Source: Protonemura montana (Eukaryota; Arthropoda; Insecta; Plecoptera; Nemouridae). Taken from it: a DNA stretch of 64,000 nt. The notes beneath the pieces are model-generated. The model was not told the origin of the DNA and searched no databases. It saw only the letters and a list, made by a program, of their open reading frames with translations. A program made the position numbers and the translations under genes. Position 1 is the first letter of the stretch. Every line of letters begins with the position of its first letter. This document shows positions 1 to 61,843 of the stretch, piece after piece. The DNA lies in NCBI GenBank assembly GCA_947568835.1, contig OX387603.1, forward strand, positions 498,501 to 562,500, written 5' to 3'.

Positions 1-599
1 AGGTCGAGCTCAAACGTTTCGTCCCAGTCGAAGACGAGGTCTCCGGTTCGAACCACGGTGCGAGCCTTGTGCACCCGGTCGCACTCTAGCACGCAGTACA
101 GGTCGCGAAGTTCCCCACTGCCACCAACCCCTGAAACAAAACCACGTGGATTGAAACGCTGATCTCAGGGAACCAAGGTGACCACCGGCTTAACGTCCCT
201 TCCGAAGGACGGTACAACGCGAACAACAGGATTCCTCCACAAATCCATGCTGTTGAGAGGTTGATAAGCAAGGCGAGTGAAGTTGCTGTACTAACTTTCA
301 TCCCTCCAACCTCTCACCCGAACAGAACTGGTCATGTGTATGATGGTCACCCATCCTATACCTGACCCAGTGCAGTGTTGCTCAACTTTCATCCCTCCAA
401 CCTCTCTCCCGAACAGAACTGGTCATGTGTATGATGGTCACCCATGCAATACCTGACCCAGCTCAGTGCTACTCACCTATAGGTGGTTGACCTGATGGGG
501 TCCCTGGGGTGGAGACTGCTGAAGTGGAGGCAGTGGAACGTAGACCACGCCCAGCGAGGAGATGAACCCAGAGCAAACCACTGACTCCTGGCTCAGAGT
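1..599 (-). CDS. syd-1: C2-domain exons of syd-1 (partial)
   Basis: Exon 477-599 encodes the first C2 strand ([15 protein letters not shown]) followed by a Ser/Thr/Pro-rich loop. Exon <1-130 continues with [19 protein letters not shown] and ends in [10 protein letters not shown] at the window edge. The acceptor at 131-132 was chosen over a nearer AG at 119-120 because only it keeps the phase-1 junction and it has the better pyrimidine tract. The Ser/Thr/Pro insertion in the first loop is long. Confidence 0.88.
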
Positions 600-3500
600 C
601 TGGAACAAGAAAAAACAAACCAATCAGAGACAAGCACAAGGCAAGGCATGGCATGGCATGGCATGGCATGGCATGGCATGGCAAGGTATGGCCTGGCATG
701 GCAAGGCAAGGTATGGCATGGCATGGCATGGCATGGCATGACAAGGCAAGGCCATGTAAGGTAAGGACTATGAACTGACCTGACATCATAGAATGAGGTT
801 TCTCTGGTTTGTATTTGATGAACTCTGCTGGGTTGATCTCTAGACAGCGTTGCTTGTCAAGCGCTGGTGAGTGCCTTGAAGGAGTGCTTGGAGTTGACTG
901 GGTCGGCATACAATGCCGTGCCTCAAGCTCCAACAAGTGACGCATTCGTCGCAACGAGCTTGCGTTCCGTTCCGCCGAGGACGCAGCTGACTGGTGGCGG
1001 TACTGGTGGCGGTCGAGAGTACTAGTCACGTGACCACCGCCCACCGAGGAGGAGGGGCCTCGATATCCGCTAGCACTGACGTAGCCACTCGAGCTGGCAG
1101 CAGCCATAGCATCCTGGAAACCAATACATTGTTGGCAACGAGCAGGAGTCAATTAAGCTGAGCTAATTTTAGAGTTTAGCTGGCTGGATCCTATGCTCTA
1201 TCCAGGTTATTTGAGATCAGCTGGCTGGATCCTATGCTCTATCCAGGTTATTTGAGATCAGCTGGCTGGATCCTATGCTCTATCCAGGTTATTTGAGACC
1301 AGCTGACTGGATGCTATGCTCTATCCAGGTTATTTGAGATCAGCTGGCTGGATCCTATGCTCTATCCAGGTTATTTGAGATCAGCTGGCTGGATCCTATG
1401 CTCTATCCAGGTTATTTGAGATCAGCTGGCTGGATCCTATGCTCTATCTAGGTTATTTGAGATCAGCTGGCTGGATCCTATGCTCTATCCTGGTTATTTG
1501 AGATCAGCTGACTGGATCCTATGCTCTATCCAGGTTATTTGAGATCAGCTGGCTGGATCCTATGCTCTATCCTGGTTATTTGAGATCAGCTGGCTGGATC
1601 CTATGCTCTATCCAGGTTATTTGAGATCAGCTGGCTGGATCCTATGCTCTATTCAGGTTATTTGAGATCAGCTGGCTGGATCCTATGCTCTATCCAGGTT
1701 ATTTGAGATCAGCTGGCTGGATCCTATGCTCTATCCAGGTTATTTGAGATCAGCTGGCTGGATCCTATGCTCTATCCAGGTTATTTGAGATCAGCTGGCT
1801 GGATCCTATGTTCTATCCAGGTTATTTGAGATCAGCTGGCTGGATCCTATGCTCTATCCAGGTTATTTGAGATCAGCTGGCTGGATCCTATGCTCTATCC
1901 AGGTTATTTGAGATCAGCTGGCTGGATCCTATGCTCTATCCATGTTATTTGAGATCAGCTGGCTGGATCCTATGCTCTATCCAGGTTATTTGAGATCAGC
2001 TGGCTGGATCCTATGCTCTATCCAGGTTATTTGAGATCAGCTAGCTGGATCCTATGCTCTGTCCAGGTTATTTGAGATCAGCTGGCAGGATCCTATGCTC
2101 TATCCAGGTTATTTGAGATCAGCTGACTGGATCCTATGCTCTATCCAGGTTATTTGAGATCAGCTGGCTGGATCCTATGCTCTATCCTGGTTATTTGAGA
2201 TCAGCTGACTGGATGCTATGCTCTATCCAGGTTATTTGAGATCAGCTGGCTGGATCCTATGCTCTATCCTGGTTATTTGAGATCAGCTGGCTGGATCCTA
2301 TGCTCTATCCAGGTTATTTGAGATCGGCTGGCTGGATCCTATGCTCTATCCTGGTTATTTGAGATCAGCTGACTGGATGCTATGCTCTATCCAGGTTATT
2401 TGAGATCAGCTGGCTGGATCCTATGCTCTATCCTGGTTATTTGAGATCAGCTGGCTGGATCCTATGTTCTATCCAGGTTATTTGAGATCAGCTGGCTGGA
2501 TCCTATGCTCTATCCAGGTTATTTGAGATCAGCTGGCTGGATCCTATGCTCTATCCTGGTTATTTGAGATCAGCTGACTGGATCCTATGCTCTATCCAGG
2601 TTATTTGAGATCAGCTGACTGGATCCTATGCTCTATCCAGGTTATTTGAGATCAGCTGACTGGATCCTATGCTCTATCTAGGTTATTTGAGATCAGCTGA
2701 CTGGATGCTATGTTCTATGGCAGGTATGTGAGATGTCTAGAAGCTAAGAATAACCTCAGAACGGTGCATGAGGTTGATATTTTCAGCACTGCATGAGAAT
2801 CGCGCTGCTCGCTGTCGTTGCACCATCTCACGTGACTGACGGATTCTCTCGTAGATGGCGCTGGTGGAGGGAGTACGAGACAACCACGCTCTGTATTCGC
2901 TGGCAGTGAATACACTGGGGCTGGAGGGAAGCCGTCCTGAGAACATGTACATGACATTCAATCAGGAACATTAACACAGCACAGAATGTCAGAAGATTTG
3001 CTTGCTATTTGTTATTTCAGCTTTATTCTGATTGAAACATCGGCTGCTGTCACTTTTATAACCCGGCTTTTATACGGCTTAAAAGCGCTCGACCATTTAC
3101 TCTCTCACTTGGAACCAGTTTTACCGACGCATTTTAAATCTTGCTTAATCAAAGGTTAGGACAAAAGTGATTTTCCCCGTTTAGCTGACTGTGTAGATAA
3201 ATACACAAAAAAGATGTAAATATAATTTGAATTTGTTGATGATTCAGGAAGGCTTTGTCCTGTCACATAAAAGAAATTTAATTTAGCAGCCGTCACTATT
3301 TTCTCTCCGTGCAAATCATTGTTTAATATTTGAACCTGCAAGGCTGGGGTTTAACTTTTAAACTGTCATTAGGAGGTCAAAGTTAGAAGTCCCATTGATA
3401 TTTTGTTTGTATTTCCAAGTCGCCAAATATTCTGTTTCAAAGCACAGCAGTCTTGGCTTCATAATCTGAACCACTGCTGCCATCTGGCAAGAAATCATGA

Positions 3501-6500
3501 CACTTAAACATAGTGTTACAGTTTGCTACTAGATGGCAGATGAGTTCAGAATGACATACACATGCTCATTGAGCCGAGATGATAAGCGATCCATATTCTC
3601 TCAAAAGATACTTTTATTTAAAGTTTTAACTTTGTAATTCCAAGTCACCAAAAATTCTGTTTGAAAGCCAACACATTGTTGAACACTATTTTATTCTTGT
3701 TCTTCTTGTGTTGTCTGAGTTTCTTGGTTTGCTTTTATTAAAATATCATTGTTTTAAAGCAAATTACTGCGCCGGATAAAATCACGCCTGAACGGCGTTT
3801 AGGTTACATTCTATTGTTGAGAACAATTTGTCTCTTGTTCTTCATGGGTTGCTATGGTTACATATTGGTTACTTACCTCTGTCTCGCCTGGCAGTTGGCA
3901 GCTCTGGAGCAGACAAAGCCCCATCGCTGTCGTCGTGCTCAGCTAAGCCCCCAACGACTCCTGATCGTGCATCAAACCCAACGTTGCCGTGGTTACATAT
4001 TGGTTACTTACCTCTGTCTCGCCTGGCAGTTGGCAGCTCTGGAGCAGACAAAGCCCCATCGCTGTCGTCGTGCTCAGCTAAGCCCCCAACGACTCCTGAT
4101 CGTGCATTGAACCTAACGTTGCCGTGGTTACATATTGGTTACTTACCTCTGTCTCGCCTGGCAGTTGGCAGCTCTGGAGCAGACAAAGCCCCATCGCTGT
4201 CGTCGTGCTCAGCTAAGCCCCCAACGACTCCTGATCGTGCATTGAACCTAACGTTGCCGTGGTTACATATTGGTTACTTACCTCTGTCTCGCCTGGCAGT
4301 TGGCAGCTCTGGAGCAGACAAAGCCCCATCGCTGTCGTCGTGCTCAGCTAAGCCCCCAACGACTCCTGATCGTGCATCAAACCCAACGTTGCCGTGGTTA
4401 CATATTGGTTACTTACCTCTGTCTCGCCTGGCAGTTGGCAGCTCTGGAGCAGACAAAGCCCCATCGCTGTCGTCGTGCTCAGCTAAGCCCCCAACGACTC
4501 CTGATCGTGCATCGAACCTAACGTTGCCGTGGTTACGTGGAGCTGACGGTCGACCTCGATGATCTCGTGGCAGTGAGTTGGAACGCAGTCCCGAAGACAT
4601 CAAGGGGGCGGAGCTTGGAGGGGGGCGTGTCGCTTGTGTCAGCCCTTGACTGGAATGTGAACAAAGGGGTGTGGTTTAGCGGTGGTCAACTCTAATTGTC
4701 TCCATGGCGACCATGTTGTTTGTACCGGTAGTAGTAGTATGAGGTCCTGGGCGAGGCTGAGCAGGTTGCCTCGGTGTCTGAGGCGTAGTCTAGTGCCGGG
4801 CGGTGCCGTCGTGTTAGAGTCCCCGTAGTGAACTGCTGCTGGCGTCCAGGAGGCTCTCCTCTGCTGCCGTAGCTGCAAGCAATGTTGCAACATTGTACAT
4901 TAACCTAACATTAACACGGCAAGCAACGTTGCAACAGCGTCTGGTTCTTATTCCTCATATTCCAAGCTCTTTAGAAGTCGTGGTTCTTGTACCCGTTAGA
5001 TATAGCAGAGGCAAATAAGATATTTCTCGTAGGTTAACTCGCTTTTTAATATCGTTACGTGTTTATCAATCGTTGAGGTAAACATTGATGGAGATTTTTT
5101 GAGCATGAAAAGTCACAAAAGCGAGTTAACCTACGAGAAATATTGAAATTACATTTCATACGACAGTGGCTCCACTTAACGGCATGTTCCGGTACTCTGC
5201 ATTTTTGTCGGTAAGGTAGTAATTTGGCGGCCATCTTTCACGCAGAGACTGTAACATTGACGTTGTTTCTCTGCCTATAACCTACACACTCAACGGTTTA
5301 ACATTGACGTTGTTTCTCTGCTTATAACCTACAATTCAACTTTAGAGCCAACAATAACAAGCGAGTGTTGTTTTACCCGTGCTGTGACTTGAGACTGCTG
5401 CGCAGCGCGGTGTGGGTTGCGTACTCCGTGCGCGGCAGATGTTGATCGGATCCCGAGCGCGGCATCACGTGCGCGCGCCGCGTAGCTCCGTAGTAAGCCA
5501 CGCCCCCGGACCCGCCTAGCGGCGTGGTGGGCGTGGTCATGCCTGATCGGGTCCCGCCTCCTGACGCACGACGCCCCGCCCCCGGCATCGGGCCCCCGTA
5601 GAACGCGTGTATCTGCCGCAGGAGGGGGAAAGGGAGGACGGAAACACATAGAATCAACGTGGCTTATGGAACCGAGCACGACAACTATTTTTATATAATT
5701 ACAAAAATATTTGACCGATATTTGGTGACAAGTCTGGGTGCTAAGTTGTCAACACAGAAATATCGTCTGCAAAGTTCGACCTGAAGTTAGGCCACCTGGA
5801 TCGCAAACAAAGTCAAATGATTTTTTTGGTGTAAGTGTCATTTAAGATTTAGCTTCTCTCATATTTTACTGGCAAAGCTCAGGGTAACGTCCAAGATCTT
5901 GCAATCCGAGTCAGCTTTCTTGTAATTTCACATCGTGACCACAATTTCAGTCTAATCTGAGAAGAATGCAACTTATTTTTTAGGGAAATGTCATTTTTAG
6001 TAAAAGACCAACAGGTTAGGTTGGTCTATGTTTTGTAATGTATAAGACCGTGTTGTTCCTTCATCTACCTTCTCTGCCAACGACTCCAACGTGTTCGGAT
6101 ATCCGCGCTCGTAAGGTTGGTAATGCTGAGTCTTTGGCTGCTCAGTTATGACAGGCGGCGGCGGGGGTTGGTACGACCTGCAATTATACAGAATAACTTT
6201 ATTTGTTTATTGGCTGCTAACAAATATATTGTAGTTGTATCGGCCTATTCTAGTAAAGATTGTTATATGTAGGTAACATGATGGTAATATTGTACCGTTT
6301 ATAACATGAACAAGTAAATAAAGGTTATAATATTGGTAGTAATGGTAAGGATTTTACAATCACATTTGTGCCTACCATTGGTCGTGATTTCTTCTTTCTC
6401 CACGGCGCGCGCTCTCCTCCGGCCTTGAGTTGTAGTAGAGGTCGTTGCCCCCGAGAGCATCGTGACCGTTGGAGTCAAGGTGATGCTGAGATCCCAAACC

Positions 6501-8976
6501 AGTGAGACCGAGACGAGATCTGAACATAAAACAAGTCGAGATATAGGGTCACATAGGACATAGAGAGACATATAGGGAGGACATAGAGAGACATATAGGG
6601 CTGCCATAGAGAGACATATAGGGCTGCCATAGAGAGACATATAGGGCTGCCATAGAGAGACATATAGGGCTGCCATAGAGAGACATATAGGGCTGCCATA
6701 GGACATAGGGAGACATATAGGGTCCATACGGTTGCATAGGGCTGCATGGGGCTGCCATAGAGACATATAGGGTCGGATAGGGGAACATAGGGCTGGTCTA
6801 GAAAGGCTGACACTTGTTGAAACGGAAAGTTAGTTGTTCTGAACAAAGTTTATGATCAAGTGACCGTGCTAACCTCGAAGTTGTCAGCTGTTCCCGGGCG
6901 TCCATCCTGTCCCGGGCTTCCCTGGCGTCCCTAGCGTCCCTAGCGTCCCGTCTCCTGCAATCTTCCTCCCGATCTTCCCGATCTTCATCATCACGCATGT
7001 CCCGTTTCATGACCACCACCGGCGGGGCCTTGTGTTCAGCCCGAGTCTGCAGGAGTGGACTCGACACTCCTTGACCTGGAGGAATGACATAATTAATTAA
7101 CATTAACATTATCACAAGCAAGGTAAATTCAAATTATTTAGCTTTTTATGGGATTGCGTCAGAATTTTGCATTAACCAAGTGACCACAAAGGGCGATGGT
7201 CGCCGGATTCCAGGGTCACGAGATCCGAGTTCGCTGGATTCCAGGGTCACAGGATCAATGGGGACTCGATTTTCCAGATGAATTTTTGACATTAATTTTT
7301 GAGACGGTTATGGTGTTCATCATCAAATAAAATACCCCGCGCATTGCAAGCGTTTGCAATTTAAATAAGATTTCATATAAAATTGCCAGATTTCATTTCA
7401 TTCCAGTAAAAAAGGTGTACCGAATTGTCCCCCTATGTCATGGTATGGTCATGGTATGGTTCGTAGGCTACGATCAAATTATCTTTTCTATACGCATTTT
7501 CTTTGTTTTCTGGCAATTTATCTGTAATGTGTAATCATAATCAGGGCATCGAACCCGAAACCGAACTCGAATCGAAATTTCACATTTACCGAACCTGAAA
7601 CTGAACCCGAACCGATATTAATTTTGGTTCGATGCCCTGATCATAATGTATCTTTAATCTTGACGAGTCCAGATATTTTGCTTCCCAAGTTTGTTACCTG
7701 CTTTGCGTTGTCTCGTGGCCAGCACCAGGCGGCGAGGTATCGACATAATGATGACGACATCGTCCAGAGACATTCGCGTCACATCCACCAAGTTGACTGC
7801 CAGGATCTCATCACCGACCTAATAAACAATAACCAGGTTCATTAACCGGGACTTCACCTGTCCCGGGGGTTGCTCTAACCAATTGAGCTACTTGGACCCC
7901 GATCACCACCTGTCGCGGGTGTTGCTCTAACCAATTGAGCTACTTGGACCCCGATCTCCACCTGTCACGGGTGTTGCTCTAACCAATTGAGCTACTTGGA
8001 CCCCGATCACCACCTGTCGCGGGTGTTGCTCTAACCAATTGAGCTACTTGGACCCCGATCTCCACCTGTCACGGGTGTTGCTCTAACCAATTGAGCTACT
8101 TGGACCCCGATCTCCACCTGTCACGGGTGTTGCTCTAGCCAATTGAGCTACTTGGACCCCGATCTCCATCTGTCACAGGTGTTACTCTAACCAATTGAGC
8201 TACTTGGACCCCGATCTCCACCTGTCGCGGGTGTTGCTCTAACCAATTGAGCTACTTGGACCCCGATCTCCACCTGTCACGGGTGTTGCTCTAACCAACT
8301 GAGCTACTTGGACCCCGATCTCCACCTGTCGCAGGTGTTGCTCTAACCAATTGAGCTACTTGGACCCCGATCTCCACCTGTCGCAGGTGTTGCTCTAACC
8401 AATTGAGCTACTTGGACCCCGATCTCCACCTGTCGTGGGTGTTGCTCTAACCAACTGAGCTACTTGGACCCCGATCTCCACCTGTCGCGGGTGTTGCTCT
8501 AACCAATTGAGCTACTTGGACCCCGATCTCCACCTGTCACGGGTGTTGCTCTAACCAATTGAGCTACTTGAACCCCGATCTTCACCTGTCACGGGTGTTG
8601 CTCTAACCAATTGAGCTACTTGGACCCCGATCTCCACCTGTCGTGGGTGTTGCTCTAACCAATTGAGCTACTTGAACCCCGATCTTCACCTGTCACGGGT
8701 GTTGCTCTAACCAACTGAGCTACTATGACAATTGTTTTTGTGTTGGTTTACCTTGAGACAACCTGAGTTGTAGACGGCTGATTCCAGTGCAATGCGTGAG
8801 ATGAAGACTCCGTCCGTCCTGTCGTGGCCGTTGCCTTCTCTTATGTAAAGACCCAACGTCTGGCCTGGACGCTTCACTATCTCCACCAGGAACACCCCAT
8901 ATTTCCCATCCTGTAACAGAACAGACCATACAGGAGTCAGACCTCCATCAGCTCTGAACAAACCCACGCTACATAA

Positions 8977-9020
<44 letters not shown>

Positions 9021-19568: not shown

Positions 19569-19696
19569 GACTTTGCTTCCCGTCAACTCGTGGCACATGC
19601 GCGGTTGATCCCAACGCATCTGTGTGAACCTGATGACCCGTCATCCCCTGGTGGACATAAAACAAACCACAAGATAGATCATCTCAACAAAGATGG

Positions 19697-25720: not shown

Positions 25721-25737
25721 GACGCCATTTGACCAGT

Positions 25738-30555: not shown

Positions 30556-30571
30556 CTCGTCCTAGTCTCGG

Positions 30572-42729: not shown

Positions 42730-43600
42730 AACCAGTTTGATTAATAATAATAATAATAATGATTTATTTCATTGTCAATGTGATTAAATTACATGATAGA
42801 GATGACAGTCAATTTCCTTAACTTCAACATAATCTATACACAAATCATTACAGGCTATCACAAAGTTCTTTAACATTTTAAACATTTCTGTAATAAGTAG
42901 GTTTTAAGTTTTGTTTTAGAATTATCATTCTTGCTGTCTTTTATATAATTTGGTGAGGCGTGGTACAGTTTTATCCCCGAGTAAACAGGATTCATCTGTG
43001 AAATAGATTGTGAGTATCTTTTTGTGCCAGTTATGCTATTTCTTTAGTCGTGCAAACGCTGTTTTGTTCTGTCAATGTGATCGTTGTCCACTACGAATAA
43101 AATGCACTTTTAAATGTACAGACAAGTAATAGACATACAAAACAACAGACAGGGCAATGAAAGGACCTAGAGACTATGAAACAAAGTCTTGCACAAGTCT
43201 TTCATATAAGTGACAGCTGTCAGATTATAGCTCGACTTTGCCATGCATCGAAGTACTTTATTTGTATAGCAAAAAGTTGGGCAACATTTTTAGATCTGCC
43301 CCAAAAATATGATTCCGTATTGTAGCCAGGATTGAATAAATGCAAAGTAAACAAGTTTTGCTGTTTGTTCATCAGGTAAATGATTCTTCTAATAATAATG
43401 TAGCATTCAGCTGATTCTTTGATGCAAGTGTTTTTAAAATGTGCTACATTTCATTTACTGTCCACGTTGATGCCTAAAAATGTTGTTTCTCTTTCCCAGC
43501 GATTGTTTTACTGCTTAACTTGATTGGGGGGGCTGTTGTCCATTTTTGTAAAATTTGAGGTGATGAGCATTGATTTCCTTTATTGACTTAAATAATAAAA
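42730..43600 (-). mobile_element. Decayed LINE, 3' part
   Basis: The minus strand still shows pieces typical of the end of a LINE reverse transcriptase: FLGINVDSK, IIIRRIIYLM and, downstream, WGRSKNVAQLFAIQIKY. These are interrupted by stops. An (AAT)n tail-like tract at 42747-42765 marks the 3' end. Heavily mutated and therefore old. Confidence 0.6.
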
Positions 43601-46990: not shown

Positions 46991-48156
46991 TACATTGATG
47001 TATTTCCATGCTTTAAAGTGTATTTATGTCGTATAATATACTTTCATTACAGTTTGTACGTAATTCTAAAACTTACGTACAATGGAATAAAAAACATTTG
47101 TAATTGAATTACGCTGCATCCTGCACTTGAGTAAATAAATCCCTTCGTGCTAAGTCTGTGAACCTTCATCCAACAAGATTTCAAATCATATTTCATGATG
47201 GTCATGCATTACACTTGCTAATTATGAAAAGAAAATATGCATTAGCTTATGAAGTTATAAGATTCAATGCAAGATTCAACTTCAGGAAGCCACTGAGATG
47301 CAGAGCAAGATATCAAATGAATATTTACAATTGTTAGACTTGCTCAACTTATACTTTCAGTGAAATCAGGCAAATGAAGAATGTATTGCCGTCGTATCAG
47401 TCAGCATTTTGCCATTCCCTACGTCCGATAGAATGCATCTCATGTACATTTAAACAAATTCACATAAACAACTGCATTGTTTTTATCCTCAATTACAAAG
47501 CATTGACCCCCGGAAAGTTGGGCCATCAAGTAACTAGACATAAAGCAAGCTATGAGCTCCTAAAACACCATCAACTGTCTTAACCAAACAAACAATTCAC
47601 TCAGACTGTTAACTTTTAAATGCACTTCCCATGAGCTGCTGCAAGTGAACTGTGATAAACCAAACTTAAAGCTTTTTAACTGGAATACTGTTATTTTATT
47701 TCAAATGTAAGCAATTAGGACCTGAATATTCCGTACTTTTACTGAGATAATAACCGTCTGTATATCAATGTATTGATCAAATTCAACAATAAACTAACTA
47801 TTATTATTATAAAACATCCCCCAAGCAGTTCCACCTGACACAATCCCACCATGTGTTCAGTACACGTACAAGATCAGCAACATCTCAAGATCGAGAAGCA
47901 AAGCAACGTTTAGCCACACATTTCAACATAACACAGGAGAAACCACGGCAACGACATCCCAGGACATTATAACTTGATCCTGAGCTGGGACCAGCAGCCT
48001 TTAGCTGACAATCCTACAAACAGCCCGTCTTCAGTTTCTAAGCAACCACCATGTAAACAACAATAGATCAAGACAAGGACAGGAGGAGTTGGTTCAGTTG
48101 GTTGGTTCAGTGGGGCAAATAACAACTCTTCATGTTTAGGCTTTGCAGATGTGTGT
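46991..48156. other. Intergenic DNA 3' of RPL37
   Basis: AT-rich sequence between the Penelope-like element and the RPL37 poly(A) signal; I recognise no gene or repeat. Confidence 0.45.
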
Positions 48157-48162
48157 TTTATT
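48157..48162 (-). terminator. Poly(A) signal of RPL37
   Basis: AATAAA on the minus strand, 30 bp downstream of the RPL37 stop codon. Confidence 0.7.
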
Positions 48163-48191
48163 TACAAGCCATGTAAAGAACGTAGAATAGT

Positions 48192-50956: not shown

Positions 50957-52963
50957 ATGTTAAGACGCCAAGCTCGCATGAGGCGTGAGTATTTGTATAG
51001 AAAATCTGTGGAACAAAAACGACGAATAATTCAAGAGAAGAAAGACCATTCGAAGAGGAAGCCTTCGAAAGAAGATGGGGAACTTCAGGATACCATTAGT
51101 TCTTTACAACATGCAACACCATTCAGATTGAGTGGGATAGATAATGACGCCTCAGCCGACAACGAATACAAGTGGGCAGCTGTAGAAGATCCAAAAGTGA
51201 TGATTACAACATCCCGTGACCCATCATCGCGACTGAAGATGTTCGTTAAAGAAATGCGACTCATGTTTCCTAATTCGCAGCGAATGAATCGCGGCAACTA
51301 TGAAATGGGTCAGCTAGTGCACGCCTGTAAGGCTAATAATGTGACAGATTTCATTATTGTTCACGAGCATCGAGGCGTTCCTAACAACCTGATTGTCTGC
51401 CATCTGCCGTTCGGGCCGACGGCATACTTTAACATCTCTGGAGTCGTCATGAGACACGATGTGCCTGACATTGGAACAATGTCCGAGCAGTACCCGCATC
51501 TCATTTTCCACAATTTCCAATCTGTGTTGGGCCGTCGATTTCAGTGCATTCTGAAGCACTTGTATCCGGTCCCAAAGGAAGACAGCAAACGTGTCATCAC
51601 ATTCGCCAACCATGATGATTACATTGCATTCCGTCATCATACATTCAGCGGAAACGGTTAGTAACAGTGACACAAATCAGTTTGCACTTTCCATGGTCTA
51701 CTTTATCAACTTTATCTTTGCTAATTTAGAACTAGTCTTACCACTAGCAACTTAGATGAAGGATTGTTAATCTTTTATCTATGCTAGCACTATCTTAGAA
51801 CTAGTTTAAAAAACAACTATTTACAACTAGGCTTTTGATTGCTAAACTTTGCACTTCTTTCCTTGGTATTTGGGATATAACTTAGGTTTTTAAGGCAGTC
51901 TTTATTCCTTTCTTGACTTGAGAGCGGTTGGTCCTGGGTATTCAAGGTTTGAGTAAGAAACTTGTCTGAATAGTTCTGTGCTAAGTTGGGTGCTATCATT
52001 GGTGCTATTGTTATTATACCTTGCCTAGACAAGCTAGCAATATAGGTAATAGATTGTGATAGGTAGGTTACAACTTGGGTGGAAAGTAACTGCCTTGATT
52101 GGGAGATAATAGAAGGATTGCTGAGCTTAGTCATTATGCTGCTAATTAAAGATCATTGAAAAACACATTTTGAAATGTTGGTTTTTGAATGCTCAGTAAA
52201 CCAGCAAATTTGTTCAAAGTCTTGCTATGCCTGTTACTTCATCAAGTGCGCAAGTAATTGTGACTTAAATCCGATAACAAAAGAACCTCACAAATAAAAG
52301 CAATTATCTTGTCTGGGCATCGTACAATGCAAAACACGCTCTCCAAGAATCTTAAGTCAAGTTCAATTATTCAAACAACTCACATAAACATTTTCTCAAC
52401 AAACCAGTAGCTTCTTTATGATTGTTTTTAGACTCATGTCTACTTGATGTAAACTTAGCACTAGTTTTAACAAAAACTATTTCAACTGGGTTTTCAATGC
52501 TAAGTGAAGAACAACTGAATTTCCCAACGTTTCGTAACTTGTACCTGTTACTTTATCAAGGGTAAGAGCAGTCCTGACAAAACACAATAACAAAAGAACC
52601 ACATAAAATTATAAGAATTACCAAGTTGAGCTTCTTCTTCTATAATTTTGTTGGTCTTGGGTTTGATGAACTGGATTTACCTAATGATGTGATGTATGGG
52701 TAATAATTTAGCCGATGTTCATCAGTTTGAAGTTGTATAAGCAATGTTATCGTCTGATTTCAGGCAACAACGTGGAGTTGAGTGAAGTTGGTCCACGGTT
52801 TCAACTGCGACCGTACAAGATCTTGCTTGGAACGCTGGACATGGAGGGCGTGGCTGACACTGAGTGGGTCTTGAGACCGTTCATGAACACAGCAGCAAAA
52901 CATCGAGCTCTTTCTGACAAGGACGGGTGGAAAAACAAAGACGGCTCCACGTTCAACTCATAG
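50957..52963 (+). CDS. IMP4: U3 snoRNP protein IMP4, complete
   Basis: Brix-domain component of the SSU processome, needed for U3-dependent cleavage of pre-18S rRNA in the nucleolus. Two exons, 50957-51656 and 52764-52963, joined in phase 1. Product 299 aa (human 291). The start MLRRQARMRREYLYRK aligns with the human N-terminus; an A at -3 gives a fair Kozak context. Brix blocks: EDPKVMITTSRDPSSRLKMF, MNRGNYE, TDFIIVHEHRG, CHLPFGPTAYF, HDVPDIGTMSE, RVITFANHDDYIAFRHH; the second exon gives VELSEVGPRFQLRPYKI and the conserved W near the C-terminus. The 1107-bp intron carries a minus-strand Penelope-like terminal segment (52170-52590). AATAAA at 53383 is the likely poly(A) signal. Confidence 0.96.
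52170..52590 (-). mobile_element. Penelope-like non-coding copy in the IMP4 intron
   Basis: Terminal segment (52430-52580) plus adjoining non-coding part (52240-52430), in reverse orientation to the gene. No coding region of the element is present. Confidence 0.75.
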
Positions 52964-53382
52964 CCACGCCCACTCTCGGAGGGGTCCACGATCGAGCTGG
53001 GGTGCAGTTTGATTCTGGGGCTTTTAAAGGACATTTTTGGTTTTTTTTTTACCCAAACCCAGGTCCTTGTTGGTACTGCAGTGAAACTGTTACACTACGT
53101 CACGATCCTTCCATACTTTTCATTGTGATGCAAACTTTCAACTCTCAGCTGCTGATGAGGGGACAGTTCTTTGTCCAATCAGAGCTCAGCACGGAGCTCA
53201 CGAGGACATTAATGTCACGTTATCTTCTCAATTCAGACACAAACACACAAACAAAATGTATCCAATATTTTCTAACATTTCACTATCCTTGTTGTAAAAC
53301 TATGCATTGTGAATAATATCTTCAATTCGAGGCTGCTTCGGTGACGACAAATACAAATACTGTGTACTTTCGTTGATTTTGA

Positions 53383-53388
53383 AATAAA
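53383..53388 (+). terminator. Poly(A) signal of IMP4
   Basis: AATAAA on the plus strand, about 420 bp past the IMP4 stop; no closer canonical hexamer was noticed. Confidence 0.55.
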
Positions 53389-53577
53389 ATTAGTGATTTT
53401 GAAGATGAATACAAAAGCAAGAAATGATTGTTAATTCAGCACTGGGCGGATAATTTGTTTGATGTTCAACGGGGTCTATGCTTCAGAAGGCTGTGTGTTC
53501 ATTTGAATCTTCGTCTCCATGGCAACCTGACAGGACATGGGATGATGAAACTCTACCATTAAAACAAGAACATTCAA

Positions 53578-53583
53578 TTTATT
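53578..53583 (-). terminator. Poly(A) signal of EIF2B3
   Basis: AATAAA on the minus strand about 150 bp past the EIF2B3 stop codon. Confidence 0.6.
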
Positions 53584-53589
53584 TCCCTC

Positions 53590-53725
53590 CATTGCCTGGT
53601 CTTACATCTCCACATAGTCTTACCCCTCCATAAGGTCATATATACCTCCATTGCCTGGTCTTACATCTCCACATAGTCTTACCCCTCCAAGAGGTCATAT
53701 ATACCTGCATTGCCTGGTCATGTAT
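53590..53725. repeat. Short duplicated segment in the IMP4-EIF2B3 interval
   Basis: CCATTGCCTGGTCTTACATC + TCCACATAGTCTTACCCCTC occurs twice, about 59 bp apart, with a partial third unit. It lies within the 768-bp tail-to-tail interval, probably in the EIF2B3 3' UTR. Confidence 0.75.
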
Positions 53726-53731
53726 CTGGTA

Positions 53732-56700
53732 TTATATCTCCATGAGATCTTCAAGTTCAGTCAGTGTCTCACTCTGGTGTTTCGTTCCTGCAGCGACCAG
53801 GAAGTTGGCTCCGACGATGCAGTCTGTGAGCTTGCAGTTGTCTTCAATGACTGCCCCGTCGCAGACTACGCAGTTGACAAGAACACATCTGCAACAAACA
53901 TTGCACGGAACTCATTTACTGGCACAGATAACCATAGATAACCACCATAAACCACAATACAGCTTTTACTAATTGAAAACTATCGCAATAATTGGGAAAT
54001 CTCTTTAAATCTGAAACTATTTTTTTGTGAGAAAATAATGAACAAGTATTTTTTTATTTTCTTCTAAATTCAATTTTGAATAAAATATCTCTGTTTAAAA
54101 TGTTTGCGTTTGAATCTCGTACGAAAACGAGGGTCGCCATTTTTTCTGACATGAAGTGAAATCTGACGTCAGTATGACGTCAAGAAACAGAAGCGAACGC
54201 AAAGGATACAACAAAATGACGTCAGAACTACGTGTAGTTAATCACAGCCCGTTTTAATCCCGCCACGAGAATTCATATTTTAGCCATTCTTAAAACAAAT
54301 ATAAATAGAAAAGTTATGATCGGATTATAAAAAGAGAAAATACATCAGATTTTATTTTAAACGCGTATTTGAACACAATGATAATAATTAAATAATAATC
54401 TTAATGAGATTTCCCTATTGATAAACATGTCATTCCCTCTACTTGCCAGATGCCCAAGTAATAATAATAATATGTTAAAATTGTAACCTGATTATACGTA
54501 TATATTTACTAACCCCTCGTGTACGGAGGCCGATCCAATGAGAATGCAACGTTGCAGTCGAACTTTCTGCCTTACGTCGCATCTTGCCCCAACCATCGAG
54601 TTGGCAACACTTGTTCTCTCCGCCAACGTTGCCTGCTCCATAACATAGCTACGTTGGCACAACTGCGTAGACTTGATGCTAGCGTCGGGGTGGGCGGAGC
54701 TTGGAGGAGACACGCCCCCAGTCACACGATCCCACCAATCGAATATCTGCCGAGAAGAAACAATCACAATCACTCTAGACTCATGTCTACTTGATGTAAA
54801 CTTAGCACTAGTTTAAACAAAAACTATTTCAACTGGGTTTTCAATGCTAAGTGAAGAACAACTGAATTTCCCAACGTTTTGTAACTTGTACCTGTTACTT
54901 TATCAAGGGTAAGAGCAGTCCTGACAATTTTCCAATAACAAAAGAACCACATAAAATTATAACAATTACCAAGTTCAAGCTTCCTAAATGCATCTAAATA
55001 AAATAATCAGGGTCAATAACTTAAAAACTAATGTATTTTGTATTTTCTGAAGTAAAATCCCGAACAAATTTGTGTTTTTTACTAACTAATGTCGTTGAGT
55101 GTGCAAAGTAAAGTAAAGTTGCATTGGTTTTACCAGCGTAGGTCACTTCCAGGGGACAGAATTGAATCTTCTATATTATCAGAATTATTATTATTATTAC
55201 TGTATTTTATTATTATTACTTTTATTTACTATCCTGACGATGTCTAACGAGATTCATGGCTTGTAAATGTGTTATTTATTTAAGCCAATAAAGTCTATCA
55301 ACCATTCAATCGTGTGGTTAACAAAATGGCCGTCTATCGCTTGTCTCCTGACCTGATTGTTCGCTTGACAGAAGCTTGACATGGAGTTGACTCGGAGGCC
55401 GATAGTTCCCGGTGCTGCCATCAGAGCGTAGCAACGATACGGATCTCCGAGCAGCGGCTGCCGCAGATCTTCTTTGTGATCCGTGTAAAGTGACAGCTGA
55501 CGAGCTTTCAACTCCAACGGATGCTCCAACGCAAAGTCAACGATATCTGGAATTATATATAGGTCATTAAAGTTAGAACAACTTCACTTGCCTTGCTTAT
55601 CAACCTCTCAACTTCAACTTCACTTGCCTTGCTTATCAACCTCTCGACAGCAACTTCACTTGCCTTGCTTATCAACCTCTCAACAGCAACTTCACTTGCC
55701 TTGCTTATCAACCTCTCGACAGCAACTTCACTCACCTTGCTTATCAACCTCTCGACAGCAACTTCACTTGCCTTGCTTATCAACCTCTCGACAGCAACTT
55801 CACTCACCTTGCTTATCAACCTCTCGACAGCAACTTCACTCGCCTTGCTTATCAACCTCTCAACAGCAACTTCACTCGCCTTGCTTATCAACCTCTTGAC
55901 AGCAACTTCACTTGCCTTGCTTATCAACCTCTCGACAGCAACTTCACTCACCTTGCTTATCAACCTCTCGACAGCAACTTCACTCGCCTTGCTTATCAAC
56001 CTCTCAACAGCAACTTCACTCGCCTTGCTTATCAACCTCTTGACAGCAACTTCACTCGCCTTGCTTATCAACCTCTCAACAGCAACTTCACTCGCCTTGC
56101 TTATCAACCTCTCGACAGCAACTTCACTCGCCTTGCTTATCAACCTCTCAACAGCAACTTCACTCGCCTTGCTTATCAACCTCTCAACAGCAACTTCACT
56201 CGCCTTGCTTATCAACCTCTCGACAGCAACTTCACTCGCCTTGCTTATCAACCTCTCGACATCATGGATATTGATATACTAGATGATTGTTTAGGGTCAG
56301 GTATTGGATGGGTGACCATCATACACATGACCAGTTCTGTTTGGGAGAGAGGTTGGAGGGATGAAAGTTAAGCAACACTGCGCTAGGTCAGGTATTGGAT
56401 GACCATCATACACATGACCAGTTCTGTTCGGGAGAGAGGTTGGAGGGATGAAAGTTAAGCAACACTGCGCTGAGTCAGGTATTGGATGGGTGACCATCAT
56501 ACACATGACCAGTTCTGTTCGGTAGAGAGGTTGTAGGGATGAAAGTTAGTACAGCAACTTCACTCGCCTTGCTTATCAACCTCTCGACAGCATGGATTTG
56601 TGGAGGAATCCTGTTGTTCGCGTTGTACCGTCCTTCGGAAGGGACGTTAAGCCGGTGGTCCCCTTGGTCTTCGACAGGAGTAGGCTACGAGCCGGCACCG

Positions 56701-59700
56701 GGTTTCCCCTCATCCCTTCTAGGCTAGGTTAGGTTCATCATCATCAGACCAGTGCCACACGGAGCTATGTTACAAACAAAACAAAGTGTAACGTACCCTT
56801 CTCCATCTCCTCAGGGGGCGTGGCCCTCTCTGCCCCGCCCTCTGCAACACCGAGGTCATCCACCTCCCGGTCCGAGTCCGAGTCTTCGTTGGTCAACTTG
56901 GACTTGTTTCGTTGTGATGGACGTCCGAGCTGATGTTTAACAACGTGTGGCAGTACCTCTCCTTTGAATGTGCTGAGCTCGCTGTCAGGTAAAACATTCT
57001 TGTTATTTCAGTACTTTGACACAATATTTCAGACTTTTCATGCTCAAAAAATCTCCATCAATGTTTACCTCAACGATTGATAAACACGTAACGATATTAA
57101 AAAGCGAGTGACCTACGAGAAATATTGAAATTAAATTTCATACGACAGTGGCTCCACTTAACATGATGTTCCGGTACTCTGCATTTTTGTCGGTAAGGTA
57201 GTCATTTGGCGGCCATCTTTCACGCAGAGACTGTTACATTGACGTTCTGTCTCTACCTAGAACCTGCACTCAACGCTATTACACTTTCGTGTATAATTTT
57301 AATAATTTAACATGCCGTGTTGTTTCGTATTTGGCTGTTCAAATAATGCCTTAAAGAATGAGGGAGCCTTTCCATCGTCTGGATTTCTAAAAGTGTTTCT
57401 TTATCGGTTCCCGAATAAAGATAAAAATCCAGATCAATTACAAAACTTGACTGATTTGTTGGCGAGAAAAGTCAATCCCACGATCCACAGTCGCGTTTGT
57501 TCCTATCATTTTTTGAAGTCGGATTTCAACGCAGATGCTTTGTAACGAATGAGTGACCAAGTCACTTGAATCGAGGGGTACACTGTCAAGTGATATTCTC
57601 ACCCCACTCATGGCAAAAGGCATCGATCCCTCGAAAACATAGCGATTGCGACTGCTATGTTATTCCGCTGCTGTAAGTTTCCGCAATTTTCAACAGCTTG
57701 CTTACATTGTAAAACTTGCGTTTTTCTCGGCGAAAACATACCACACCATCATCAATAGCTGTGTCAATCGTATAATAGCATATATATATGGTATAATACC
57801 ATATATATGCTATTATAGCATATATAAGCTATTATAGCATATATATGCTATTATAGCATATATATGCTATTATAGCATATATATGCTATTATATGCTATT
57901 ATATGCTATAATAGCATATAATAGCATATAATAGCATATAATAGCATATAATAGCAATTAGCAATGAAGATTTGGACGTCGGTGACGATCAAATGGAAAC
58001 ATTGTTTAGTGCGTTGTTATAACTCAATGGTTTAACTTACGTTGTGAACGCCAGGTAGTCCAGGATCCAGCGTCGTATCACATAAAGGTGGGAGTCAATC
58101 AATGAGCTGTGAAACAACACACGAAGATGTTTCTGTAGCAAACGTTTGCGTATCGGCAGCTCGTTGTCATGGAGATCAGAGGCTGACCGGCAGTAGACCA
58201 GGCGTGACGTGCCGGGCTCCCAACCAATAATATCCCTCTCTGTAAACAAAACACAACACAACACATAATAATATCAATAACATGACTCATGTCTACTTGA
58301 TGTAAACTTAGCACTAGTTTTAACAAAAACTATTTCAACTGGGTTTTCAATGCTAAGTGAAGAACAACTGAATTTCCCAACGTTTCGTAACTTGTACCTG
58401 TTACTTTATCAAGGGTAAGAGCAGTCCTGACAATTTTCCATACACACAATTAGTTGGTTAGTTAAATACACAAATTTGTTCAGGATTTTATTTCAGAAAA
58501 TACATAATACATTAGTTTTTGAGTTATTGACCCTGATTATTTTATTTAGATGCATTTAGGAAGCTTGAACTTGGTAATTGTTATAATTTTATGTGGTTCT
58601 TTTGTTATTGGAAAATTGTCAGGACTGCTCTTACCCTTGATAAAGTAACAGGTACAAGTTACAAAACGTTGGGAAATTTAGTTGTTCTTCACTTAGCATT
58701 GAAAACCCAGTTGAAATAGTTTTGACGTGACTACGTCTTAAAGTGCATTATATAGGGAGGCAGGTACGGATTTGCTCTCCAAAATAGCCAATGTGTAACA
58801 AGCTCTACAGCCTACAGGAAGCTAAGTATAGAGTGCGACTTATTATCATTCAATAGTTCAGACAATTCTCTAAAAGTACTTTTTTTTTATTTTCGATAAA
58901 ATAAATATTGGAGGCGTTAGAGGGGTTGGCGTTTTTAATTCTCTCCATAAGACCAATGTTAAATTACGCAAAATGGCAAATGTGTAACAACCTCTACAGC
59001 CTACAGGAAACAAAGGACAGAATGCGACTTATTATTGTTCAATAGTTCAGACAATTCTCTAAAAGTACTTTTTTTTGATTTTCGATAAAATAAATATTGG
59101 AGGCGTTAGAGGGGTTGGCGTTTTTAATTCTCTCCATAAGACCAATGTTAAATTACGCAAAATGGCAAATGTGTAACAACCTCTACAGCCTACAGGAAAC
59201 AAAGGACAGAATGCGACTTATTATTGTTCAATAGTTTAGACAATTCTCTAAAAGTACTTTTTTTTTATTTTCGATAAAATAAATATTGGAGGCGTGAGAG
59301 GAGGCAGCGTTTTTGGCACTCGTCATTAGACTAATGTAAAATAAAATATATACATCGCAAGATGACACTTCCATCCCAATCTGTAAAGTCCTTCAGCATG
59401 TAAATTAGATATGAAAACACAACCCAAATAAAGAGAGATGTAAAACTTGCATGTGAAGTATGGGCAGTACTGTAGTTGACCTACGTACCTACGCGGTAGT
59501 TGAACGTAGTTACGCTTAAATATCGGCCGTATCAATAAGATACAGTTACACCAGGTTTTTTTGTTAAACCCTGGTCATGCTCAGTGAAATCTGATTTAAA
59601 TTGCAAACGCTTGCAATGCGCAGGGTATTTTATTATTAACAACAATATAACCGTCTCAAAACTTGATGCCCAAACGGGGACTCGAACCCCGATGCACCCG

Positions 59701-61843
59701 CGACAGGTGGAGATCGGGGTTCGAGTCCGCGTTTGGACATCAGTTTTTGAGACGATTATAGTGTTGATAATAATAAAATACCCTGCGCATTGCAAGCGTT
59801 TGCAATTTAAATCAGATTTCATCCTAATAAAGTGCCAGCAAGTTGGTACCAGCACTCACCGGGTCTGTTCTTAGTCTTGGGTCCCGGAACGGTCTCGCTG
59901 AATGTGTTCGGTGGGAAGAACACGGTCACTAGCGACGCTTGCCGTACACGGAACACATCTAGAACGTCTCGGAGTCTGAACTCGGTGATCAAGTCACAGC
60001 TGAGAACCACGACATCCGTCTGGCAGTGATACAAACATTGAGGTTAGAGATGATTGTTGATTTATTTTCATAATTTCAGATAATAATTATTTATATTTGT
60101 GAATAATACTTTATCACTGTTTTAAAAATTGGTAAAATATATATTTTTTAAAATTGATATTGAGCAGAATTGTTAAATGTATGGTTCTATGACACAGTGG
60201 GATTTATTGTTCCCACTGCTGGTTTTACTCACAAAAACAAAAATCTTGAAAAATCTAAATGAACCAAGAAGCCAAGTTGAAAGCAATGAAAGTTAAACCC
60301 CGTTGATTAGAGACCTGGGGGTATCGACCTCGTCAAGGAAGAGCGTAGCAATAATCAACAGGTTGGTTTAAATGTACTCACGGTAATCTTCTTGCCCACG
60401 AAGCGTAAGGAATCTGCCGTCCCCCAATCTTCAGCTGCAGGGATACCAACGTAATCAATGTGAATCTTGAGTCCAAGTCGATCCAGTGCAACCTGAATCT
60501 CAGTCCTCGCTGCTTCTTGTACAATCAATATCACATCTGCAAGACATCAGACAGATATATATCGGTGAGACATCAGGGAGAAATATATCGGTGAGACATC
60601 AGGGAGAAATATATCGGTGAGACATCAGGGAGAAATATATCGGTGAGACATCAGGGAGAAATATATCGGTGAGACATCAGGGAGAAATATATCGTTGAGA
60701 CATCAGGGAGAAATATATCAGTGAGACATCAGGGAGAAATATATCGGTGAGACATCAGGGAGAAATATATCGTTGAGACATCAGGGAGAAATATATCAGT
60801 GAGACATCAGGGAGAAATATATCGGTGAGACATCAGGGAGAAATATATCGTTGAGACATCAGGGAGAAATATATCGTTGAGACATCAGGGAGAAATATAT
60901 CGGTGAGACATCAGGGAGATATATATCGGTGAGACATCAGGGAGAAATATATCGGTGAGACATCAGGGAGAAATATATCGGTGAGACATCAGGGAGAAAT
61001 ATATCGGTGAGACATCAGGGAGAAATATATCGGTGAGACATCAGGGAGATATATATCGGTGAGACATCAGGGAGAAATATATCGGTGCTTTAATGTGAAC
61101 AACAACATAGAAGACTTCTTTATCAAGCAACAACTCAAGCAACAACTCAATCAACAACTCAAGCAACAACTCAAGCAACAACTCAAGCAACAACTCAAGC
61201 AACAACTCAAAGTATCAATCATTGGCCACAAAATGTGGTACCTCCAAATTTAGACTAACATCTGTAAACGTTAGCAATGTAATGCTAATGTAATGCTAAT
61301 GCAATGTTAGTAACACGAACAATTTCAACCGCTGGACCCAGCACAACGTATCGGATCTGTGATTTCATCTGCGACACCAAGCTTAAGCGTGGAACGTTTA
61401 TGACTATTTTCAAGAAATACCGCAGACTTTAAATGTTGGCACCACTTCTCACCAAAGATATTATTTCCTTCTTATGTCCAAATGTCTCATGCTTCTTGTA
61501 GCATGGCAACGCTACTACGCTTCTGTGCCAAAACAAAATAAGTACGAGGCTGCGAGAGTTACTCAATTTCAGGTTAGTCTCGGTGCAGATTTCCAGCGAC
61601 AAGATTCGAAGTTGTGATGAACACAAGCGACTGCACTAACAGCTTCTACACAAATAACTCAGTAGCAGAGAACCCACCTTGGAAACCGTTACGTTCCAGT
61701 AGTTGTAAGGGATACCAAACCATTGGCTTGCATCCGATGGGTAGCAGACATTTAGGTCGAGCGGCTGTCAAATCCATCATCCGGGATCCTTTGCCCGCTG
61801 CCATGATCACCGCCTGGAACTCTGGAGGCTCTAATGCCGCCAT
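53732..61843 (-). CDS. EIF2B3: Translation initiation factor eIF2B subunit gamma, complete
   Basis: Gamma subunit of the GDP/GTP exchange factor for eIF2; with epsilon it forms the catalytic subcomplex. Eight exons: 61678-61843, 60382-60536, 59860-60019, 58041-58239, 56797-56981, 55353-55546, 54514-54746, 53732-53888; all GT..AG and phase-consistent. Product 482 aa (human 452). The N-terminal nucleotidyltransferase-like domain shows [48 protein letters not shown] and [10 protein letters not shown]. The C-terminal left-handed beta-helix shows repeating hexads, with [20 protein letters not shown] and [16 protein letters not shown]. The terminal LEDLMEI matches the family ending. Extra length lies in an acidic Ser/Asp insert in exon 5 and in the start of exon 7. 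IMP4 and EIF2B3 converge tail to tail. Confidence 0.96.
54775..55085 (-). mobile_element. Penelope-like non-coding copy in EIF2B3 intron 6
   Basis: Terminal segment plus the 3' non-coding region of the 45480 element, in reverse orientation. It starts about 30 bp from the acceptor of exon 54514-54746. Confidence 0.78.
55560..56262. repeat. 36-bp minisatellite in EIF2B3 intron 5, about 19 copies
   Basis: Unit TTGCTTATCAACCTCTCGAC + AGCAACTTCACTCGCC. At 12 codons per unit it is open on both strands ([12 protein letters not shown] on plus, [12 protein letters not shown] on minus). It begins about 14 bp from the acceptor of exon 55353-55546. Single units recur at 240-297 and 56550-56590. Confidence 0.93.
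56297..56550 (+). repeat. 5S-like 91-bp repeat, about three units
   Basis: Same family as 23612-24888; one unit carries a deletion of about 8 bp near 56398. It joins directly to the 36-bp repeat on both sides. Confidence 0.85.
56551..56755 (+). repeat. Composite block: 36-bp unit plus SINE-like repeat
   Basis: One 36-bp unit, then GGAGGAATCCTGTTGTTCGC, then the SINE-like repeat with its CATCATCATC tail. It is the inverted counterpart of 133-300. Confidence 0.72.
57035..57640 (+). mobile_element. DNA-transposon fragment encoding a partial THAP domain
   Basis: 57102-57280 matches the transposon ends at 5117-5300 and 13384-13480. It is followed at 57312 by a reading frame of 77 codons beginning [12 protein letters not shown], with [10 protein letters not shown] and [13 protein letters not shown]. 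The Cys pair, then Cys-X2-His near residues 62-65, fit a THAP zinc finger, the DNA-binding module of P-element-like and related transposases. The frame stops soon after and no transposase core follows, so this is a truncated copy. It sits in EIF2B3 intron 4. Confidence 0.65.
57770..57956. repeat. AT-rich palindromic microsatellite
   Basis: About 185 bp of ATATATGCTATTATAGCAT repeated and inverted, then (ATAGCAT)n. Nearly every segment is its own complement, so the tract can extrude as a cruciform. Confidence 0.92.
58280..58735. mobile_element. Penelope-like non-coding element with inverted terminal segments
   Basis: A minus-orientated terminal segment (58280-58440), the 3' non-coding region (58440-58620) and a plus-orientated terminal segment (58628-58722). 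It is a coding-free derivative of the family at 45480, in EIF2B3 intron 3. Confidence 0.8.
58770..59335. repeat. 189-bp tandem repeat, three copies
   Basis: TAAATATTGGAGGCGTTAGA recurs at 58902 and 59091 and, with small changes, at 59280. Units share CTACAGCCTACAGGAAAC and a T8-9 run. No coding potential. Confidence 0.9.
59585..59822. mobile_element. tRNA-derived palindromic element (head-to-head 3' halves)
   Basis: Arms 59585-59680 and 59735-59822 are inverted copies (CTGATTTAAATTGCAAACGC at one end, GCGTTTGCAATTTAAATCAG at the other). Inside, GGTTCGAGTCC (B box) reads on both strands, and the centre CACC-CGCGACA-GGTG forms an anticodon-like stem-loop shared by both halves. The left half keeps a perfect T stem (CGGGG/CCCCG). 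It is therefore two tRNA 3' halves joined at the anticodon arm. A single arm is at 7265-7400, and the 52-bp arrays share its central part. Confidence 0.85.
60543..61085. repeat. 26-bp minisatellite adjoining the EIF2B3 exon 2 acceptor, about 21 copies
   Basis: Unit GAGACATCAGGGAGAAATAT + ATCGGT. The first units lie 3-10 bp upstream of the acceptor of exon 60382-60536. The pyrimidine tract and any branch point are thus made of repeat sequence (CTCCCTGATGTCT on the minus strand). Confidence 0.95.
61128..61212. repeat. 12-bp repeat (CAACAACTCAAG)n
   Basis: About seven copies in EIF2B3 intron 1, close to the 26-bp array. Confidence 0.92.

Follow-up and report, generated by a model that had tools for sequence, protein, structure and literature searches.

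Tandem arrays, some of them of SINE segments or exon-junction sequence, fill introns near contig ends in the plecopteran Protonemura montana

A window of 64,000 nucleotides from Protonemura montana (GenBank assembly GCA_947568835.1, contig OX387603.1, hereafter C2; C2:498501-562500) was analyzed in this study; it lies 0.5 Mb from the end of the contig and carries the genes syd-1, GIPC, and EIF2B3, in which several introns are largely made of tandem arrays. Such arrays are concentrated at contig ends, whereas a short interspersed nuclear element (SINE) that supplies some of their units is spread along the contigs and mostly keeps single segments in contig interiors. The same SINE segments are amplified at the ends, and some arrays include exon ends with their splice sites. 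Chromosome position seems to decide where repeats grow, and the main niche of the arrays is the chromosome end. We think it probable that a chromosome-end zone turns ordinary sequence into tandem arrays and that the window lies inside this zone, whose depth reaches up to about 4.6 Mb among the matches listed.

The dependence on position was revealed by genes unrelated to those of the window. By Pfam searches, exons from four gene families (myosin, kinesin, dynein heavy chain, and HECT) were located genome-wide, and neighboring exons were paired by profile continuity, with aldehyde dehydrogenase matches set aside; for kinesin, HECT, and myosin mostly longer spans were chosen, blind to arrays. 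Among 199 continuous exon pairs, 166 introns were called in the fetched DNA (146 with strong and 20 with weak splice calls, the weak ones being kept), and the other 33 were not covered. Arrays were present in 19 of the 166 introns, that is, in 18 of the 35 lying no more than 2.5 Mb from a contig end vs. one of 131 elsewhere (p = 1.4e-13), and they made up 15854 of 44878 intron bases (35%) at the ends vs. 326 of 68477 (0.5%) elsewhere. By locus, nine of 10 end loci and one of 36 others contained arrays (p = 9e-8), and the contrast between ends and interior was stable across the four array definitions and two zone widths tried. Being an intron is therefore insufficient for acquiring an array, and the proposal of an initial annotation of the window, in which array growth within introns was limited only by splice signals, is weakened by interior introns that are practically array-free. 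Families of the window recur in this sample: the 52-bp unit in dynein on C13 and HECT on C15, the 91-bp unit in HECT on C15 (with a 92-bp version in myosin on C14), the 41-bp unit in HECT on C15, and the 34-bp family in a kinesin intron that it fills (C2:1245744-1247067). Families of 34, 41, 52, 68, and 91 bp are common to several loci. The arrays had been described as private to each intron, a description that fails for the 34-, 41-, 52-, and 91-bp units, all of which recur in introns elsewhere in the genome.

Exact genome-wide patterns of the units agree with this distribution, the positions given here being those among the matches listed. The doubled 91-bp unit has 243 matches genome-wide, and the listed places cover C1–C5 and part of C11; all 56 clusters on C1–C5 lie within 4.5 Mb of an end, with 36% expected within 5 Mb. 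Similarly, all 31 listed C1–C2 clusters of the fourfold 41-bp unit (408 matches) lie within 4.6 Mb and all 12 of the fourfold 34-bp unit (842 matches) within 3.9 Mb, with 32% expected within 5 Mb in both cases. The 41-bp double unit has 2590 exact matches genome-wide. A 44-base stretch of the SINE tail, picked from interior copies, served as the control; its 516 matches include clusters spread along C1 and C2, of which seven of 80 fall within 2.5 Mb of an end vs. 12.7 expected. Within 5 Mb of the ends of these two contigs we counted 21 of 21 listed array clusters vs. 37 of 80 SINE clusters (p = 2e-6).

The SINEs concerned have heads that we take, by eye from box letters, to be 5S-like in one case and tRNA-like in the other. 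In interior copies of the former (read at 7.73 and 5.79 Mb on C3, 8.07 Mb on C1, and 6.15 Mb on C14), the 5S-like head with one 91-bp segment is followed by one 36-bp segment and a tail; a more diverged copy was found at 7.03 Mb on C13. Of 10 matches to the 91-bp unit in contig interiors, eight represent a single or incomplete copy, and the other two, both at 6.15 Mb on C14, hold about 3.5 copies. On C15, 1.66 Mb from an end, the 91-bp segment of this SINE is repeated 8.2 times, with the 36-bp segment and the tail intact, and the EIF2B3 region holds an array of 19 copies of the 36-bp segment. The 52-bp unit corresponds to the head of the tRNA-like SINE; it is single in interior copies and forms a dimer (2.1 copies) inside such a SINE at 2.35 Mb on C13. 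Segments of dispersed SINEs could thus be recognized in the 91-, 36-, and 52-bp units, and not in those of 26, 34, 41, 45, and 59 bp. The rest of the SINE is still present beside the array on C15 and at 56.3 kb of the window. The reading of the arrays as tRNA or 5S genes was rejected: Rfam gave no match in the window at gathering scores, a weak search of the 91- and 52-bp stretches gave no match either, and in such a weak search the 70-bp unit matched the tRNA model at 21.8 bits, under the gathering score of 29.

Exon junctions form a second class of seed. In a kinesin gene on C14, 72-bp units consisting of an exon end and its donor are repeated 24 times in an array that begins within the exon; in a kinesin gene on C2, 32-bp units contain the acceptor and five exon bases (10 copies); and in the window, a 135-bp unit carries the end of a syd-1 exon with its donor. 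Because the exon sequence adjoins the same exon, these three arrays most simply started in place. When introns were compared for units with an exon end and splice site, one of 35 end introns (kinesin on C14), none of 131 others, and none of the 17 measured window introns gave a match (bit score 42.1).

These observations suggest a mechanism in which the seeds would mostly be internal segments of dispersed SINEs with 5S-like or tRNA-like heads, local sequence from introns or exon junctions serving less often. The first step may be a tandem duplication between short direct repeats that pre-exist in the seed. By reading, direct repeats were noted at the unit borders: AAGTTA (91 bp), ACAGCA (36 bp), CAAGTA (52 bp; 51 apart in the sole copy that shows them), CAGGACTC (32 bp), and, imperfectly, GTAACCAYRGCAAC (135 bp). 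Expansion could then proceed via unequal exchange or repair synthesis, which would be common in the vicinity of chromosome ends, perhaps owing to a local clustering of breaks or crossovers. Arrays that disrupt exons or splice sites would be removed by selection, and the survivors in short introns would consequently look cut to fit.

Several points weigh against this explanation. The direct-repeat step is suggestive only, because six other lags among the 140 of the SINE consensus show, like lag 91, a direct repeat of at least six bases, and the repeat is not kept in every copy: AAGTTA is missing in two of four SINE copies, and lag 36 gives 6 bp in one copy only. The border homology of the 72-bp kinesin unit is at most about 3 bp by eye. 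Regarding position, the SINE tail is itself somewhat over-represented within 5 Mb of the ends (25 clusters expected, p = 0.005), completeness of the match listings is assumed, and contig ends are assumed to be chromosome ends, with no telomere repeats seen. On C1, no array is present in eight loci of 3 kb at 0.14-3.7 Mb, and the end zone is therefore patchy. Conversely, C14 near 6.15 Mb (L076 and L022) is the sole interior locus with arrays in the sample; its two 92-bp arrays of about 3.5 copies lie mid-contig, near further SINE copies. The higher array density of window introns relative to presumed intergenic DNA is also not predicted by position alone. Finally, no SINE remainder was seen beside the 91- and 52-bp arrays of the GIPC introns 37618-39395 and 31431-32296, so that in-place growth alone is insufficient.

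This last observation bears on an alternative in which the arrays spread mainly by copying between chromosome ends, through circles, template switching, or gene conversion, rather than by repeated birth in place. Apart from the two SINE-derived GIPC arrays, it is favored by the many identical 41-bp double units, for which no interior seed occurs in the fetched sample. However, the SINE arrays with intact tails on C15 and at 56.3 kb of the window, as well as the arrays born from exons, speak for a local start, and an orientation of the 41-bp arrays toward the telomere did not hold up, as minus-strand arrays occur on C1 at 31.3-32.1 Mb. Some transfer of array copies from locus to locus is probable as well, but we consider it rather unlikely as the main route.

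Two further alternatives concern introns as such and draw on the annotation of the window. Tandem Repeats Finder (TRF), with arrays defined for coverage by a length of at least 150 bp and a period of at least 10, classified 43.9% of the window as array. All nine arrays named in the initial annotation were recovered, with edges within 20 bp of those it gave; a 95-bp array in GIPC intron 39493-42018 was absent from its list. The exons of GIPC join into a complete frame of 328 amino acids over six introns, which carries the GIPC GH1, PDZ, and GH2 domains, and the EIF2B3 gene matches eIF2B gamma; in the first gene a PDZ domain was found, and its name syd-1 otherwise follows the initial annotation. 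The features are as follows, with distances from the array to the donor and acceptor given for measured introns.

173-475, minus strand: 5S-like-headed SINE with 2.1 copies of the 91-bp segment (289-475), the 36-bp segment (248-289), and the tail (173-250).
1178-2734, plus strand: 41-bp array (TRF) in syd-1 intron 1114-2754 (gene on the minus strand); donor 20 bp, acceptor 64 bp.
3848-4536, minus strand: 135-bp array of 5.1 copies; by reading, the unit is a syd-1 exon end with its GTAAGT donor, and the borders carry the imperfect direct repeat GTAACCAYRGCAAC.
7855-8724, plus strand: 52-bp array (head of the tRNA-like SINE) in syd-1 intron 7819-8751; donor 27 bp, acceptor 36 bp.
9766-13383, plus strand: 45-bp array in syd-1 intron 9488-13944; donor 561 bp, acceptor 278 bp, not edge to edge.
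14298-16751, plus strand: 59-bp array in syd-1 intron 14086-16888; donor 137 bp, acceptor 212 bp, not edge to edge.
17434-19068, minus strand: 95-bp array, presumed intergenic (in none of the measured introns).
19692-21782, minus strand: 41-bp array, presumed intergenic (in none of the measured introns), of the family at 1178-2734 but reversed.
23611-24885, minus strand: 91-bp array, presumed intergenic (in none of the measured introns), of the family in GIPC intron 37618-39395.
25452-25672, plus strand: 107-bp duplication of a SINE tail segment, two copies (TRF).
27099-30054, plus strand: 70-bp array with a tRNA-like unit, outside the measured introns (presumed intergenic).
31464-32276, plus strand: 52-bp array in GIPC intron 31431-32296, edge to edge; donor 20 bp, acceptor 33 bp.
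32421-37250, plus strand: 34-bp array of 142 copies in GIPC intron 32407-37267, edge to edge; donor 17 bp, acceptor 14 bp.
37641-39372, plus strand: 91-bp array in GIPC intron 37618-39395, edge to edge; donor 23 bp, acceptor 23 bp.
39956-40878, plus strand: 95-bp array and, after it, a 5-bp array in GIPC intron 39493-42018 (2526 bp); donor 1315 bp, acceptor 463 bp.
55579-56261, plus strand: 36-bp array formed by the middle segment of the SINE in 19 copies; by reading, an EIF2B3 acceptor is about 30 bp away.
56294-56667, plus strand: 5S-like-headed SINE with 2.7 copies of the 91-bp segment, the 36-bp segment, and the tail.
60542-61087, plus strand: 26-bp array in EIF2B3 intron 60537-61677; donor 590 bp, acceptor 5 bp.
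63582-64000, minus strand: 91-bp array of 4.6 copies, cut by the window end.

The 91-bp unit thus occurs in the window at 289, 23611, 37641-39372, 56309, and 63582, the 52-bp unit in syd-1 and also in a GIPC intron, and the 95-bp unit at 17434 and 39956; the 26-, 59-, and 70-bp units were found in one place only in the DNA examined. The 91-bp array of GIPC appears as two TRF rows around a run of 200 N (38001-38200), so its real length is not fixed by the assembly.

Seventeen introns of the three genes, not all that they possess, could be fixed by their splice sites; the introns holding the arrays at 289-475, 3848-4536, and 55579-56261 lie outside this set. Nine of the 17 contain arrays, five of them edge to edge and four not, and the DNA left beside the array amounts to 349, 839, 63, 84, 1778, 46, 31, 53, and 595 bp, the value of 46 bp (91-bp array of GIPC) leaving out the N run, which sits within the array. 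The claim that array ends lie 3-60 bp from splice sites therefore holds for five introns, one gap of 64 bp included, and not for the other four. Array-free introns also occur, such as 5614-6068 (acceptor position good to one base). Both IMP4 and RPL37 had been cited as genes devoid of arrays; the RPL37 intron is indeed array-free, as judged by eye only, whereas IMP4, a single frame of 240 amino acids in which no intron was seen, is uninformative on array-free introns.

In favor of an intron niche limited only by splice signals or, in its weaker form, of a preference for introns within the end zone, arrays make up 70% of the length of the 17 measured introns vs. 34% of the presumed intergenic DNA (25 kb, four pieces pooled). 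These pieces differ: arrays make up 60% of 16931-30570, none of 42310-48190 and 51700-55200, and 19% of 61845-64000. The first runs from the first placeable syd-1 exon to the GIPC stop, and part of it could be an intron in the 5′ untranslated region of syd-1. Relative to a model that places each array at random in the space left by its intron, 1, 8, and 10 of 18 window edges were observed within 10, 30, and 60 bp of a splice site vs. 2.3, 6.5, and 10.1 expected (p = 0.15 at 30 bp), and in the independent sample 5, 11, and 14 of 38 edges vs. 4.0, 7.7, and 11.0 expected (p = 0.03 at 30 bp). Pooled, 19 of 56 edges lie within 30 bp vs. 14.2 expected (p = 0.01), with no excess at 10 bp (6 vs. 6.3) or 60 bp (24 vs. 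21.1). The nearer edge is closer than uniform in the sample (Kolmogorov–Smirnov p = 0.008), whereas the window deviates in the opposite direction (p = 0.14). The argument that random arrays would not be expected so near to splice sites receives mild support from the pooled excess at 30 bp, but neither at the other two distances nor from the window alone.

Edges thus tend mildly toward splice sites, which is mostly explained by the scarcity of other DNA in these introns. No difference in length was found between the non-array remainder of array introns and interior introns free of arrays (p = 0.30), but this remainder is smaller than end-zone introns without arrays (p = 0.002). Less than 100 bp is left in eight of 28 array introns vs. 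five of 130 array-free interior introns (p = 0.0003), although five of those eight come from the discovery window and the sample alone gives three of 19 (p = 0.07). Against introns as the privileged niche stand the single array among 131 introns away from the ends, the 60% array content of presumed intergenic 16931-30570 with the same families, the lack of an edge excess at 10 and 60 bp, and a basis of one window and few independent arrays. We regard this alternative as improbable, and a secondary preference for introns within the end zone is possible.

Even less probable is the creation of these introns by introner-like mobile units with their own splice sites. The 34-bp family fills two unrelated introns, in GIPC and in kinesin on C2, and leaves 31 bp in each, which is below the minimum of 77 bp among interior introns free of arrays; in the kinesin intron, the donor letters from +4 onward are within the array. 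However, both acceptors and the GIPC donor fall outside the array, the same families occur outside measured introns, and in these two introns the 34-bp unit, the family compared, has opposite orientation relative to the genes, on which ground the introner reading was rejected. Introner units carry the splice sites that are used and keep one orientation to the genes, in which the 34-bp family differs from them. The remainder plus one unit copy amounts to 65-137 bp in the five edge-to-edge window introns and two kinesin introns on C2, and to 51 plus 114 in an eighth case (HECT on C12), so an older short intron may have preceded the array. A GC-rich or quadruplex-forming driver, as proposed for chicken dot chromosomes, is the least probable of all, since the somewhat higher GC content of array sequence (0.479) than of non-array DNA is set against a non-array GC content of 41.8% within 2.5 Mb of ends vs. 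41.1% elsewhere in the fetched loci, a quadruplex motif in none of 51 TRF units, and a 34-bp family of 38% GC; GC content does not explain the end zone.

The end zone of P. montana can be compared with four known systems, in each case as far as the consulted passages of the source describe it. Sequence stuttering on chicken dot chromosomes fills introns of ordinary genes with exon-bounded arrays of tens to hundreds of bases, some units of which copy an exon end with its splice site; it is concentrated in one chromosomal compartment, varies in intron length among individuals, and according to these passages is reported in no other vertebrate (PMC12954441). Similarly, the arrays described here lie inside introns and stop at exons, and some units carry exon ends with splice sites; exceptions are the 72- and 32-bp kinesin arrays on C14 and C2, and arrays also occur outside measured introns. 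Different from the tiny GC-rich chicken chromosomes and their local repeats, the zones lie at the ends of contigs of 13-33 Mb with unchanged GC content, and several families are common genome-wide and SINE-derived, with one assembly examined.

In squamates, SINE-derived satellites consist of SINE portions, often with one SINE end beside the array, and long loci lie toward the ends of chromosomes, in contrast to the even spread of the parent SINE (PMC10702118). Consistent with that report, the units here include segments of a dispersed SINE, long loci are near the ends, and the SINE is spread, if mildly end-enriched (p = 0.005). Here, however, one SINE gives two units (91 and 36 bp) and a tail duplication, tRNA-like heads and exon ends also act as seeds, and arrays fill introns of coding genes. 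Human subtelomeric variable number tandem repeats (VNTRs) with long units, including those in introns, show enrichment in the terminal 5 Mb of chromosomes, most strongly (21-fold) for units above 60% GC (PMC7608644). Enrichment within 5 Mb is shared by P. montana, in which the median unit GC is 0.50 (51 TRF rows) and the contrast is near all-or-none in the sample. The autosome arms of Caenorhabditis elegans are enriched in repeats, tandem repeats included, and subtelomeric DNA is generally non-repetitive, with exceptions (PMC9071541); this is an invertebrate with repeat-rich arms, for which the review passages do not describe array-filled introns. Among the titles listed in literature searches, none was noticed that describes introns filled by arrays at the chromosome ends of an invertebrate, which is no proof of absence.

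The present case joins features of chicken stuttering, squamate satellites, and human VNTRs without the GC factor, and three phenomena that were reported apart are brought together in one genome. Because GC content hardly differs between ends and middles of contigs in the fetched loci, competing drivers (GC or quadruplex vs. position) could be separated here, and a SINE that is single-segment inside chromosomes and amplified at their ends provides a natural before-and-after series. More tentatively, and with less confidence than we place in the end zone as such, the ends may form a bounded, sequence-independent amplification zone, several megabases deep, that grows any seed (SINE, intron, intergenic DNA, or exon-splice junction) and renders introns array-filled purely by gene location. 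If so, a single process, acting in different compartments and governed by the density of breaks or crossovers instead of GC content, would underlie stuttering in chicken, SINE satellites in squamates, and subtelomeric VNTRs in humans. For gene finding, intron size in this genome depends on map position.

Among the fetched introns, array-free ones are also longer within 2.5 Mb of a contig end than elsewhere (median 691 vs. 392 bp, p = 4e-5), and the end zone may therefore gather other DNA too. Short arrays of CATGC-like 5- and 10-bp units occur at window positions 640-752 and 40702-40878 and at 8466-8637 of locus L041, two of the three within called introns. An ARAGORN call of tRNA-Leu at 30441-30525 overlaps a 17-bp repeat and is probably false. 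Between two EIF2B3 exon matches, a plus-strand open frame with a THAP domain lies at 57306-57542 (E = 2.5e-7); the middle exons of EIF2B3 were not located. An AT-rich 38-bp repeat at 57771-57956 carries inverted motifs resembling TATATAGC and GCTATATA. An array-free stretch of the window contains an RVT_1 reverse transcriptase fragment (E = 9e-13), which, together with a nearby open frame without a Pfam match, probably represents a retroelement (45527-45916 and 46340-46612).

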